In this document: in pieces, positions 1 through 36,672 of the stretch
How the letters are laid out: each line of letters opens with the position of its first letter
Numbering within the stretch: the first letter of the stretch is position 1
Source: an alpha proteobacterium SCGC AAA536-G10
GTDB lineage: Bacteria; Pseudomonadota; Alphaproteobacteria; Puniceispirillales; Marisalimonadaceae
DNA length: 64,000 nucleotides
Assembly (NCBI GenBank): GCA_000384615.1
Contig: ARQU01000010.1
Location: 1 to 64,000, forward strand
Reading direction: 5' to 3'
Position numbers and translations under genes: made by a program
Notes under the pieces: model-generated
Told to the model about the DNA's origin: nothing
Database searches by the model: none
Seen by the model: only the letters and a program-made list of their open reading frames with translations

Positions 1-519
1 TTAATCAATAACAGTTACAGCACGTCTGTTTTTTGACCAAGCCATACTATTAGAACCAACAACTGCGGGTTTTTCCTTTCCATAAGAAATTACCTTAATT
101 CTGTCAGGATCAATACCTTGTATAACTAAATAATCTCTTACAGCAGTTGCTCTTTGCTCACCTAAAGCTAGATTGTATTCCCGTGTGCCTCTTTCATCAC
201 AATGACCTTCAACTATGAAGTTCAAGTCGGTATTAGCTCTAAGAAATCTTGACTGAGCATCAAGCATTATTTTAGCACTTGAATCTAATTTAGCTGAGTC
301 ATAATCGAATAAAACTCTATCACCAACAGCAATTAATTTATCTGAAGCTGTTTGCTTAGCTTGTGCAAATAAACTTTTGTTTTTGTCAACTGAGCTTGAA
401 GCTGAGGTAGATCCACTTGATGAAGTTGAGCTACCACTAGTAACTACTTTTTGAGATGCAGTCTCACAAGCTGAAAGTAAAGCAACCGCACCTATTAAAG
501 CAATAATTCTCTTATTCAT
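1..519 (-). CDS. pal: Peptidoglycan-associated lipoprotein Pal
   Basis: Outer-membrane lipoprotein that anchors the outer membrane to peptidoglycan and binds TolB during constriction. The 172-residue product starts with a lipoprotein signal ending in the lipobox LLSAC (Cys18), followed by a Ser-rich linker (about 28-45) and an OmpA-like peptidoglycan-binding domain (about 65-170) with the typical segments FDYDSAKL, EGHCDERGTREYN and SYGKEKP. It is the last gene of the minus-strand tol cluster, 108 bp after tolB. Its stop codon occupies the first three bases of the window, so the gene is complete. The cpoB/ybgF gene that usually follows would lie outside the window. Confidence 0.96.
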   Translation of the reverse strand: MNKRIIALIGAVALLSACETASQKVVTSGSSTSSSGSTSASSSVDKNKSLFAQAKQTASDKLIAVGDRVLFDYDSAKLDSSAKIMLDAQSRFLRANTDLNFIVEGHCDERGTREYNLALGEQRATAVRDYLVIQGIDPDRIKVISYGKEKPAVVGSNSMAWSKNRRAVTVID

Positions 520-2927: not shown

Positions 2928-3353
2928 TCAACTTTCTTTTAACTTAGCTACTAACGCAACCTTCTTAAAACCAGACCTTTTTATTTTCGCTATTATATCT
3001 AAAACTATTCCATATGGAACATTTTTGTCACCTCTGACATAAATTCTAAGATTTTTATTTCCGGAACTAATAGCCTTAAGACGAGGTAAAAGATTAAGAG
3101 CATCAATTACTCTTTCTTGAATATATAAGTCACCATTTTGTTTTATACTAACTACTATTGGGTCACCTTTTGAGTTTAATTGAGCTGCCTTTGTTTTTGG
3201 AAGATCTACTGTAACACCTACGGTTAGTAGAGGAGCGGTAATCATGAAAACAATTAACAAAACCAACATAACGTCAACAAATGGCGTAACATTGATTTGG
3301 CTCATCATCTTATTTTTTTTATAATTATTTTTATTAAGGATCCGGTTATACAT
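2928..3353 (-). CDS. tolR: TolR/ExbD family biopolymer transport protein
   Basis: Stator-like subunit of the TolQR proton channel. The 141-residue protein has the ExbD signature QINVTPFVDVMLVLLIVFM, with the conserved membrane Asp at position 27, one membrane helix (about 24-44), and a periplasmic ExbD domain with PKTKA and RGDKNVPYG. It directly abuts tolQ upstream and is 4 bp from tolA downstream. The stretch before Met16/Met17 is a Lys/Asn-rich tail, so translation could start at either Met; I kept the first ATG. Confidence 0.96.
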   Translation of the reverse strand: MYNRILNKNNYKKNKMMSQINVTPFVDVMLVLLIVFMITAPLLTVGVTVDLPKTKAAQLNSKGDPIVVSIKQNGDLYIQERVIDALNLLPRLKAISSGNKNLRIYVRGDKNVPYGIVLDIIAKIKRSGFKKVALVAKLKES

Positions 3354-4568: not shown

Positions 4569-5627
4569 TTATTTCTCTGTCGAATTCATCATATCAGTCT
4601 GCTCTTCGGCATTTTTTGGCGGATTTAAACCTAAATGTCTCCAACCTGAAGCAGAAACGAATCTACCTCTTGAAGATCTTTGAATTAAACCCCGTTGTAA
4701 TAAATAAGGTTCTATTACTTCTTCTATCATATCTTTTTGTTCTGACAAAATTGCAGATAAAGTATCTAGTCCTACTGGACCACCTTGATATTTTTCAATA
4801 ATAACATTTAGATATTTTCGATCAATTGCATCCAAACCAGATCGATCAACATCCAACTGTGTTAAAGCATTGTCAGCAAATTTTTGATCTATTTTTGGAT
4901 TGTTTGATATAGAAAATATATCTCTAACTCTCCTTAGAAGTCTTCCTGCAACTCTTGGGGTTCCTCTTGAGCGTTTCGCTATTTCGTAAGCACCACTTTC
5001 CTCAATATTTAATTGCAGTTTTTCAGCTAACTTAAGAAGAATTGTTACTAAATCTTTAGAACTATAAAACTCCATTCTAATTTGAATACCAAACCTATCT
5101 CTTAATGGTGTTGTTAACAAACCAGACCGTGTAGTTGCACCGACAAGGGTAAAGGGAGGTAAGTCAATTTTAATAGTTCTTGCCGAAGGGCCTTCGCCAA
5201 TAATTAAATCTAACTGGAGATCTTCCATAGCTGGATATAAAATTTCTTCTATATTTGGGGATAAACGATGTATTTCATCTATAAATAAAACATCTTTAGG
5301 TTGTAAGTTTGTTAATAAAGCTGCTAAATCACCAGCCTTATTTATAATAGGGCCCGATGTAGACCTAAACCCAACTCCTAATTCAAATGATATAATTTGT
5401 GCTAAAGTTGTCTTTCCAAGTCCAGGTGGTCCAAATAATAACACATGATCCATAGCCTCTTGTCTTGTGCAGGCTGCAGAAATAAATGTAGATAAATTTT
5501 TTTGAACTTGAGGTTGACCAATAAACTCTTTTAACTGTTTTGGTCTTAAATTTAAATCTTTATTTTCTTTTTGTTCGAAAACTTTAAGATCAACCAACCT
5601 ATCACCCATTTTATTTTCATCAATCAT
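4569..5627 (-). CDS. ruvB: Holliday junction branch migration helicase RuvB
   Basis: AAA+ motor that, with RuvA, drives branch migration of Holliday junctions. The 352-residue protein has the Walker A GPPGLGKT (66-73), Walker [10 protein letters not shown], the arginine-finger region with GATTRSG, and a C-terminal winged-helix domain (about 270-335). The start codon overlaps the ruvA stop by four bases, indicating translational coupling; an internal ATG at codon 7 is an alternative start. It is followed by ybgC. Confidence 0.98.
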
Positions 5628-9091: not shown

Positions 9092-9104
9092 TTATCTGCT
9101 CAAT

Positions 9105-9268
9105 AGAAGATTCGAAAGCCAGATAGTCGTTGGATAAGTTATCCTATGTTGCCTGTTAAACAGGTGGGCGCCATATACTGAAACCAGAGTTAAAGAAGTG
9201 ACGGCTCCCTAAAGATACTTATGGCCCCAAGGATTAAAGTTCCTAACAAAAAATCCAGCCTTCAGTCA
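9105..9268 (-). ncRNA. ssrS: 6S RNA (SsrS)
   Basis: Regulatory RNA that mimics an open promoter and binds the housekeeping RNA polymerase holoenzyme. Read on the minus strand, the region contains 6S-like conserved blocks (CCTTGGGGCCATAAG, TTTAGGGAGC, GGCGCCCACCTG). The ends can form a terminal stem: GAAGGCTGG (minus strand of 9255-9263) pairs, with G-U wobbles, with CTGGCTTTC (minus strand of 9114-9122). It fills the gap between zapA and the 5-formyl-THF cyclo-ligase gene, the canonical location. End points are approximate. Confidence 0.9.
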
Positions 9269-9272
9269 TATT

Positions 9273-32164: not shown

Positions 32165-33394
32165 ATGAAAAAATCAAACCAAAAAAAAGTTTTTCCTGAT
32201 GATTGTTATGTACCGTTTAATTTAAATAGAACTCCTGAAAAGAGTTTTTTAGATTGTATATTGTTATTAAGTGATGGTTCATATTTTTATGGTACATCCT
32301 TTGGTTCTAAAAAAAGAAGTTCTGGAGAAATATGTTTTAATACATCTCTTACTGGCTACCAAGAAATAATTACAGATCCATCATATACTGGCCAAATCAT
32401 TACTTTTACTTTTCCACATATTGGAAATATTGGCTCAAACAATTCTGACAATGAAGGAAAAACCTTGTCTGTTGCAGGTATTGTTGTAAGGCAACTTCCT
32501 ACTAAACCATCTAATTGGCGTTCAGAACAAAGCTTTAATGATTGGTTAATTTTCAATAAAATTCCTGGAATTTCAGGTATTGATACACGCTTACTAACTA
32601 AAACTATACGTAAATATAAAAGCTGTAACGCTATGATATGTTATGATGAAAACGGAAAATTTGATTTAAATGAATTGAAAGCTGAATTAAAAAAACACCC
32701 AAAAATGGATGGACTAAATCTCTCATCTTCAATAACTACGAATTATCAATATCAATTTAATGAATATCCTCACGAGTTAATATCAACAAAATTTTCAATC
32801 AATAACAATTTTAAACCAAAAATAGCTGTCATTGATTTTGGTGTTAAACAAAATATACTCAGACATCTAGTTAATTTAAATGCTGAAGTCATTGTGTTAC
32901 CCGAAAATACTAATATAGAAAATATTTGTAATTTTAAACCAGATGGTATTTTCTTATCCAACGGTCCAGGAGATCCTGCGGCAACAGAAAAAAAATGTAG
33001 GAAAATTCTAAAATCAATTTTCAAATTAAATATTCCTGTTTTTGGAATATGTATAGGACATCAATTAATTGGACTATCTTTTGGAGCTAAAACTATAAAA
33101 ATGTCTCAGGGACATCGAGGTGCCAACCACCCTGTTAAAAATTTGTTAAATGATAAAGTTGAAATAACTTCCCAAAATCATGGTTATGAAATAGATATTC
33201 AATCTTTACCTAAATGTTTTGAGGTTACTCACATTTCTTTATTTGACAAATCTATAGAAGGTTTAAAACACAAATCTTTGCCAATATTTTCTGTTCAATA
33301 CCACCCGGAAGCTTCTCCTGGGCCAACTGAGTCTTCTTATCTATTTAATCATTTTTTAAAACTTATCAAAGTATCAAACAATGCCAAAACGTGA
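32165..33394 (+). CDS. carA: Carbamoyl-phosphate synthase small (glutaminase) subunit
   Basis: Glutamine amidotransferase that feeds ammonia to CarB for arginine and pyrimidine synthesis. The 409-residue product has the N-terminal CarA domain and a C-terminal class I glutaminase with the nucleophile Cys296 ([12 protein letters not shown]), HRGANHPV, and the His/Glu pair in [13 protein letters not shown]. It overlaps carB by 14 bases, which favours coupled synthesis. The 232-base region to the divergent yqeY holds the promoter; I could not identify a convincing one. Confidence 0.97.
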
Positions 33395-36300
33395 AGACAT
33401 AAAATCAGTTTTAATAATTGGGGCTGGACCTATAATAATCGGACAAGCCTGTGAATTTGACTATTCAGGTGCTCAAGCGTGTAAAGCTCTTAAAGAAGAA
33501 GGTATAAGAGTAATTTTAATAAACTCTAACCCTGCAACAATTATGACAGATCCAATGATGGCTGATTCAACTTATATTGAACCTATAGAAAAAGATACAA
33601 TAGAAAAGATTATAAAAATAGAGAAACCTGACGCAATTCTTCCTACTATGGGAGGGCAAACAGCTTTAAATGCTACTCTAGATCTATACAACTCCGGTGT
33701 TCTTAAAAAATATAATATTGAAATTATAGGTGCAAAACCAGCCTCTATTAATAAAGCAGAGGATAGAGAATTATTTAAAAGGAGTATGAGAAAAATAGGC
33801 TTAGAAACTGCAAAAGCAACAATTGCCAAAAATCTAGATGAAGCTAATTCAGCATTGGATTTTGTAGGATTACCAGCAATTATTAGACCATCTTTTACGC
33901 TTGGAGGAGAAGGTGGCGGCATAGCTTACAATAAAGAGGAATTTGTTGAGATTGTGTCAAATGGGCTTAAATTATCACCAAACACTGAAGTACTTATTGA
34001 AGAGTCTCTCCTTGGATGGAAAGAGTATGAAATGGAGGTTGTTAGGGATCATTCTGACAATTGTATAATCATTTGCTCTATTGAGAACGTAGATCCTATG
34101 GGTATACATACTGGTGATTCTATTACAGTAGCTCCTGCTCTAACATTATCTGATAAAGAATATCAAAATATGCGAAATGCTAGCATTGCTGTTCTTAGGG
34201 AAATTGGTGTTGATACAGGAGGTTCAAACGTTCAATTTGCACTTAATCCAAATAATGGGAGATTAATTGTAATTGAAATGAACCCAAGAGTAAGTCGTTC
34301 TTCTGCTTTAGCCTCTAAAGCAACAGGCTTTCCCATAGCTAAAGTTGCAGCTAAACTTGCAATTGGATATAATTTGTACGAATTACAAAATGACATTACA
34401 AAATCTACACCTGCTAGTTTTGAACCTACTATAGATTATGTGGTTACAAAAATACCCCGCTTTACATTTGAAAAATTTCCTGGGTGTAAGAGTTTTTTGT
34501 CAACTTCAATGAAGTCTGTTGGAGAAGTAATGGCCATTGGAAGATCATTCCAGGAATCTCTTCAAAAGGCTCTAAGATCTCTAGAAACAGATTTATCCGG
34601 TTTAAATGACGTGCCGTTTCCAGCTCAAAATGAGGTATTAAATGACAAGGATAATGTATCTGGTTGGCTAGCAGAACAGGTTCCTGAAAGAATTTTAAGG
34701 ATATCAACAGCTTTAAGAAACAAGGTTGCAATTAATGACATTTCAAAAATTACTGGTTGGGACAAATGGTTTTTGGAACAAATATATGGTATTATTGCAG
34801 TAGAAGATAAATTAAAAGAAAGCTTATTTCCTTTAAATGAAACGTTTCTTAGAAACATAAAATCTATGGGATTTTCTGACAAACGTATTTCAGAATTAAC
34901 TAAATTTAGCTCTCAAAAAATATATGATCTTCGTTTTCAATTTAAAATTTTTCCTTCGTATAAAAGAGTTGATACATGTGCTGCTGAATTTTTTTCCGAG
35001 ACAGCTTATTTATACAGTACTTATGAACAAAACGTTGTAAATGAGTGTGAAGTGTACCCATCTACTAAGACTAAAATAATAATACTTGGTGGGGGGCCAA
35101 ATAGAATAGGTCAAGGTATAGAGTTTGATTATTGTTGTGTACATGCAGCATACAGCTTATATTCAAGGTATAGAGTTTGATTATTGTTGTGTACATGCAG
35201 CATACAGCTTATCAGATGTCGGCTACGAGACTATTATGATCAATTGTAACCCTGAAACAGTGTCTACTGATTATGACACATCCAATAAATTATATTTTGA
35301 ACCTCTAACTCACGAGGATGTAATTTCTATTATTGAAAAGGAAAGTAAAAATGGAAATGTGCTAGGAGTAATAGTTCAACTAGGGGGACAGACACCTCTT
35401 AAAATAGCATCAAATCTAGAAAAAGCTGGTATTAAGATATTAGGAACGTCTGTTAAAGCTATCGACCTAGCGGAAGATAGAAAAAATTTTAAAAATCTAT
35501 TAAAAAAGTTAAAACTTAATCAACCTTTAAATGATGTTGCTAGCAGTAAAAATGAAGCAATTAAAATAACTAATAAAATAGGTTTCCCAGTAGTTATTAG
35601 ACCAAGCTATGTCCTTGGCGGTCGTGCAATGGAAATAGTCCATAATAATGAGCAACTACTTAGATATATAAATGATGCGGTAAAAGTGTCAGGCAATAAT
35701 CCAGTTTTAATAGATAGTTTTTTAAAAAATGCTATAGAAGTCGATGTCGACGCTATATGTGATGGTAATGATACATTTATAGCAGGCATAATGGAGCATA
35801 TAGAGGAAGCAGGCATTCATTCTGGCGATTCTGCTTGCGCTCTTCCACCGCAAACTCTTGAAAAAAAAATTATTAATAAAATAATTTTACAAACAAAAAA
35901 ACTTGCAAAAGAATTAAATGTAATTGGTTTTATTAATATACAATTTGCAGTGCAAAGTGATAAAATTTTTATACTTGAGGTTAATCCAAGAGGGAGTAGA
36001 ACAATTCCTTTTGTTGCTAAGTCAACAGGTATTCCTCTTGTAAAACTAGCATCACAAATCATGACAGGTAAAAAGTTATCAGATTTTAGAATTTCGCATC
36101 ACAAGATTAACCACATATCTGTTAAAGAAGCGGTTTTTCCATTTGCACGATTCCCAGGAACTGATGTAATACTTGGACCTGAAATGAAGTCTACAGGAGA
36201 AGTTATGGGCATAGGTTCGACTTTTGGAGAAGCTTTTGCCAAAAGCCAACTTGGTGCTGGTATCAATCTTCCTCTAGAAGGTCAAGTCTTTATTTCCATT

Positions 36301-36672
36301 AAAGATGATGATAAAAAAAATATAATACCAATTGCAAAAAATCTTGAAAGTTTAGGCTTCAAAATATGCGCTACATTTGGCACTGCCAAAACTTTAAATA
36401 ACAATAGTATTAATACAAAATATGTTAAAAAGGTGATTGAGGGAAGACCAAATGCTGTAGATGCAATGTTATCGAAAGAAATACAACTTGTTATCAATAC
36501 AGCAGAAGGAACAAATTCAATAAAAGATAGTTTCTCTCTTAGACAAACTGCACTTTTAAATAAAATTCCTTATTACACTACTGTTCAAGGTGCTAAAGCA
36601 GCAACATTAGCTATCAAATCTATTAAAAATAAAAATTTGGGAATCAAATCACTCCAATCATACTTTGAATAA
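33381..36672 (+). pseudogene. carB: carB, carbamoyl-phosphate synthase large subunit, frame broken by a 52-bp tandem duplication
   Basis: Large subunit of carbamoyl-phosphate synthase. The first frame (33381-35180, 599 residues) covers the N-terminal ATP-grasp half and the start of the second, ending in the junk YSRYRV after the shift. The second frame (35125-36672) resumes with [19 protein letters not shown] and includes the second ATP-grasp half and the MGS-like allosteric domain. A 50-bp sequence is present twice (35111-35160 and 35163-35212), separated by AT. Deleting 52 bp restores one frame of 1,079 residues, the normal CarB size. An assembly error is at least as likely as a true mutation, since carB is needed for arginine and pyrimidine synthesis. 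Confidence 0.93.
35111..35212 (+). repeat. 50-bp direct repeat with 2-bp filler inside carB
   Basis: Two identical 50-bp copies (35111-35160 and 35163-35212), each encoding [16 protein letters not shown], with the bases AT between them. The total insertion of 52 bp is not a multiple of three and causes the carB frameshift. Confidence 0.97.

Follow-up and report, generated by a model that had tools for sequence, protein, structure and literature searches.

In the draft assembly of a marine bacterium of the SAR116 cluster, which is uncultured, the carB gene is split into two reading frames by a 52-bp insertion, a tandem copy of 50 bp plus two filler bases. We consider this duplication more likely to be an assembly artefact than biology: it probably arose at an assembly join and is then absent from the organism. 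The initial annotation of this DNA had named an artefact or a recent mutation as its possible origins; the artefact is the better reading, on circumstantial evidence, and recent mutation is the lesser rival. The distinction matters for an essential metabolic gene such as carB. At face value the draft would count as carB-negative, and its owner as an auxotroph for arginine and pyrimidines. Auxotrophies of this clade are predicted from genomes, often incomplete ones, according to the available portion of PMC12262181, and marking the insertion as suspect guards against an erroneous metabolic inference.

The carAB locus and its interruption

The source genome comprises 148 contigs (2.16 Mb, 90.3% complete), and the stretch analysed here, the window, is bases 1–64,000 of a contig 88,653 bases long. 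The closest named matches among those listed, from which near records may be missing, are SAR116-cluster records at 85 and 84% identity. On the plus strand, an uninterrupted carA (32165–33394; small subunit, 409 aa, PF00117 and PF00988) overlaps the start of carB by 14 bp. The N-terminal carB frame (33381–35180, plus strand, 599 aa) matches positions 1–581 of the 1058 in the profile NF003671; it is CarB to residue 593 and then continues for six out-of-frame residues to a TGA stop at 35178–35180. The C-terminal frame (35125–36672, plus strand, 515 aa from a TTG inside the first repeat copy) matches positions 566–1057 and is CarB-like from about 35164. The plus-strand copies occupy 35111–35160 and 35163–35212, with an AT at 35161–35162 that matches neither flank, exactly where the initial annotation had placed them; they are identical at 50 of 50 positions, and TRF agrees (period 52, 100% match), giving a net insertion of 52 bp. 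Copy 1 reads in the CarB frame together with the N-terminal part and copy 2 together with the C-terminal part, and because the repeat is in the CarB frame in each, the two frames jointly cover the profile. The whole CarB protein is present, split by the insertion. The span 33381–36672 is 3292 nt, and subtracting 52 leaves 1080 codons including the stop, or 1079 residues; the length first calculated for deletion of one unit therefore holds, and the uninterrupted stop-to-stop frames in relatives run from 1080 to 1101. The frame shift had been put at about codon 577, which is indeed where the repeat begins, but the CarB reading is left only after copy 1, at codon 594. Likewise, the break does lie between the ATP-grasp domains, as had been proposed, but specifically inside the second preATP-grasp domain (PF25596) that sits between them; the C-terminal frame matches PF25596 from profile position 17 of 118, the first 16 positions being missing. 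Chance is excluded as the source of the repeat because 20 first-order Markov surrogates generated from the window had longest exact direct repeats (period 10–399) of 12–15 bp, against 50 bp observed.

Could the two frames nevertheless make a working enzyme? In a two-part or recoded CarB, both frames would be translated, or a +1 shift would occur near GTT TGA, with 17 extra residues in the product. The joint span of the two frames over the profile is compatible with this idea, as are the GTT TGA, which lies where +1 slippage would restore the frame (and which we presume to be similar to the prfB site), and an AAGG 8 bases upstream of the TTG at 35125. Yet the parts are not complete domains, given the 16 missing preATP-grasp positions; the TTTGA derives from E-F-D codons and is likewise TTTGA in most listed relatives; the RNA fold is ordinary (z -1.44, with 19 of 200 shuffles folding as well); and the conserved motif at the repeat site is never doubled in the other genomes of the genus that have it. 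We regard a working split enzyme as extremely improbable. Some archaea and thermophiles have a CarB naturally in two pieces, separated between complete halves; the CarB of the source genome is likewise in two pieces, but its cut falls inside a domain and is found in one genome only.

carB in relatives and repeats elsewhere

The comparison with carB of relatives that the initial annotation had foreseen was run. A search of 60 relatives with the C-terminal part as query gave a CarB-level match (E below 1e-150) in 51, the remaining nine (61–88% complete) matching more weakly. In 47 of the 51 the frame is uninterrupted and reaches 1080 aa or more; the other four are G003, G011, G027 and G060, the first three of which stop at a contig end by their coordinates. 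Within the genus, 40 genomes were searched for the repeat-site motif with a degenerate DNA pattern, allowing up to three mismatches; 33 have it, 32 of them once and the source genome alone twice, and the split arrangement occurs in none of the 32 other motif-bearing genomes. The exact duplicate at the junction, not found in relatives, favours an assembly join and counts against a real duplication. CarB loci of named genomes (n = 80) were uninterrupted in 67 cases, L055, L056, L061 and L068 among them, cut at the locus edge in 12 and broken in one. That one, carB of a Robiginitomaculum draft (L074), has several broken frames without any repeat, and its breakage probably reflects sequencing indels.

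When window frames of at least 100 aa were compared with the relatives G021 and G001, matches above 55% identity were obtained for 77 of 81 frames (G021) and 81 of 85 (G001), and carB is, as judged from these alignments, the sole window gene that appears split. Two further multi-part matches involve a plus-strand frame lying over a minus-strand zapA-like gene (in both relatives) and an upstream extension of a dehydratase-like gene (in G001); these names, and that of pal below, are our presumption from the sequences. The C-terminal part of carB lies 34.6–34.9 kb from a contig start in G001, G013, G016, G020, G021, G022 and G030, and near 35.2 kb in the source genome with the 52 bp allowed for; since the placement is similar in the seven relatives, the breakpoint of several assemblies falls within pal or beside it.

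How unusual is such a repeat? We scanned the source genome for exact direct repeats of at least 20 bp with a period of 10–399, covering 921,501 readable bases of the 948,865 taken, and the carB repeat was the only one. This uniqueness, in the source genome as in the genus, is in keeping with an assembly join. The scan returned one 20-bp row in three relatives of the genus (172,000 bases). For G048, a control genome from the order (2,592,803 bp), 400,000 bases were scanned and gave 17 rows, one of 52 bp and one of 56 bp among them, and 16 of the 17 periods are divisible by three. Repeats of such length are thus natural in the order, which tells against an assembly join, but they nearly always keep the frame, whereas the period of 52 in carB breaks it, which tells in its favor.

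Junction, selection and metabolic backup

The main biological rival to an assembly join is that the 52-bp tandem duplication is real and arose very recently, in the cell sampled or in its lineage. CarB would have been lost, arginine and pyrimidines would be needed from outside, and dropping one copy could reverse the change; we hold this to be unlikely, although worth weighing at several points. At the junction, the ends of the duplicated unit share no microhomology and two filler bases are present instead; the junction 16-mer, searched with at most one mismatch as a template for the filler, was found once in the genome, at the junction itself, and a junction 23-mer has no occurrence in the viral contigs searched. 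No match to a Ku gene was found in this genome, which is 90% complete. Lack of microhomology, filler and lack of a Ku match together speak for an assembly join and against a recent duplication. Replication slippage was considered as a source of the tandem copy and rejected, since the microhomology expected at the unit ends is not there and the AT matches neither flank.

The selection estimates bear on age. Against seven relatives, dN/dS of the source genome is 0.051–0.059 for the N half (593 codons) and 0.052–0.081 for the C half (469 codons), ratios that are rough because dS in these pairs approaches or exceeds 0.8; the intact relatives among themselves give 0.053–0.086 (N) and 0.064–0.123 (C) for the 11 of 21 pairs reported. 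Neither aligned half contains gaps that would indicate extra lesions. Both halves thus appear to be under ordinary purifying selection, and a pseudogene under relaxed selection was rejected, dN/dS not being raised and additional lesions being absent. From copies without differences and ordinary dN/dS it follows that the event is either very young or not real; the same observations fit a very young duplication and an assembly join.

A loss of CarB might be tolerated if it were compensated elsewhere, as had been suggested for a mutation, but we found no support for such a backup. Neither a second CarB nor a carbamate kinase over the curated cut-off was found (the kinase search gave no more than a 22-bit fragment, with the cut-off at 358), which is no proof of absence because the genome is about 90% complete. 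Other members of the ATP-grasp family were rejected as CarB, their matches being weak (28–30% over part of the protein). Two transcarbamylase-family genes are retained. This combination counts against a real duplication, and the missing second CarB accords with an assembly join. Moreover, if the genome represents a population consensus, a real null allele must have reached the majority.

Precedents for short duplications do exist. In evolving E. coli, as the accessible text of PMC6941894 describes, a 21-bp duplication arose in carB; it is likewise short and inside the gene, but its length is a multiple of three, it lies at nt 3130 and it weakens inhibition by UMP, whereas the 52 bp here are mid-gene and break the frame. 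In M. tuberculosis, the part of PMC12817950 at hand reports a real 57-bp promoter duplication along with copy-number switching of tandem repeats; that variant is real, tandem and of similar length, but it is in a promoter, in another phylum and supported by long reads. Both cases lend some plausibility to a recent duplication. A more elaborate biological reading is that the repeat is a reversible on/off element in the carB of some cells of this SAR116 species, which would revert by recombination between the 50-bp copies. If true, the repeat would switch off carbamoyl phosphate synthesis, or lower it by +1 frame shifting, giving a switchable auxotrophy for arginine and pyrimidines; we think this very improbable.

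How the duplicate may have been written

We infer the join itself, whereas the repeat, its uniqueness, the intact carB of relatives and the selection on the two halves are observed. An assembly join would have involved two neighbouring assembly pieces that overlapped by 50 bp, with two faulty bases at a tip. The overlap would have been too short or too damaged to be recognized, and the pieces would have been butted end to end, unmerged; the overlap would hence appear in duplicate, the two faulty bases standing between the copies. False duplications in draft assemblies, in which a single sequence is likewise written twice on one scaffold, are described in PMC9516828, and its available sections give wrong gap filling and sequence errors among the causes and false gene calls as a result. 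The cases in that work come from three vertebrates, are mostly haplotype duplications and were judged by read depth, whereas the present case is 50 bp in a bacterium, judged from sequence alone.

The contig ends offer a view of the assembly's own habits. The assembly has 296 contig tips, of which 88 were fetched and 62 were readable. Among the readable ones there are two exact overlaps: the first 80 bp of this contig recur at the end of the small contig C35, and two other contigs overlap by 28 bp. C35 has exactly 80 bp in common at each end, with the window start and with the inside of contig C3, and 80 bases therefore seem to be a set word length in the assembly graph; words of this length common to contigs lie at window 1–80, L194 416–495, L220 1–80 and L259 5631–5710. 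These words suggest a graph step of about 80 bases. At such a step the graph would be unable to merge a 50-bp overlap, which might then be duplicated when pieces were joined later. On the other hand, with words of 80 bases a real duplication totalling 102 bp would also be assembled correctly.

The tip overlaps could be neighbouring contigs left unmerged, but they do not prove failed merging, the 80 bp looking like a branch word and the 28 bp belonging to a dispersed repeat with several more copies in the source genome and relatives. For this reason the odds of an assembly join were lowered and those of two rivals raised. Nor is there a second duplicated-overlap join inside contigs in the 921,501 bases, which also weighs against it, although a single error would need none.

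A second suspicious place lies in C3. This contig tracks G021 (95% identity over 4.1 kb) exactly to the end of the 80-bp word, at C3 base 165709 and inside an open frame; beyond the word it carries other genes without a match in the G021 stretches compared, whereas C35 carries on the broken frame and matches G021 onward. The interrupted frame lies at about 5277–5747 of L259, ending just past the word. Faulty joining, chimera formation, strain variation and true rearrangement could each explain the break. Its abruptness suggests that doubtful joins do occur in this assembly, which favours an assembly join at carB, but the possibility of a real rearrangement or strain difference detracts from that support: C3 and C35 are conflicting paths within the assembly and do not prove faulty joining. 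None of the C35 frames is matched in the 19 kb around pal of the relative G006.

If a single cell was sampled, the insertion could instead be a chimera of whole-genome amplification, in which a displaced 3' end was re-primed 50 bp back on the same strand. The C3 gene-order break could be such a chimera, as could a 94-bp inverted repeat in the small contig L217 (1–94 versus about 4649–4742, near its end). The available part of PMC1855051 reports that 406 of 475 sequenced chimeras were inversions and that, of 11 direct joins within 10 kb, 90.9% had complementary bases; the carB join is direct, very short and without complementary bases, unlike that pattern. In one study, chimeric reads were without substantial effect on single-cell assemblies, at least in the accessible text of PMC6162917. 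An amplification chimera at carB therefore seems to us quite improbable.

Other features of the assembly and window

The dispersed repeat, about 100 bp long (L203 about 354–400; L213 1–100), has multiple copies in the source genome and relatives, with at least six, a few kb apart, in contig C4 of G035; it resembles a cassette array and may be one. Lone N calls stand inside open frames at L121 5293 and L237 11684. No match was found among plasmid records, and no relative was confirmed among viral contigs; one PHROGs family was matched, without known function. A promoter scan returned 28 hits versus 25.8 in shuffles, and a terminator scan 2 versus 2.6. Finally, a gap at window 9092–9272 separates a cyclo-ligase-like gene from a zapA-like gene, presumably the usual place of 6S RNA.
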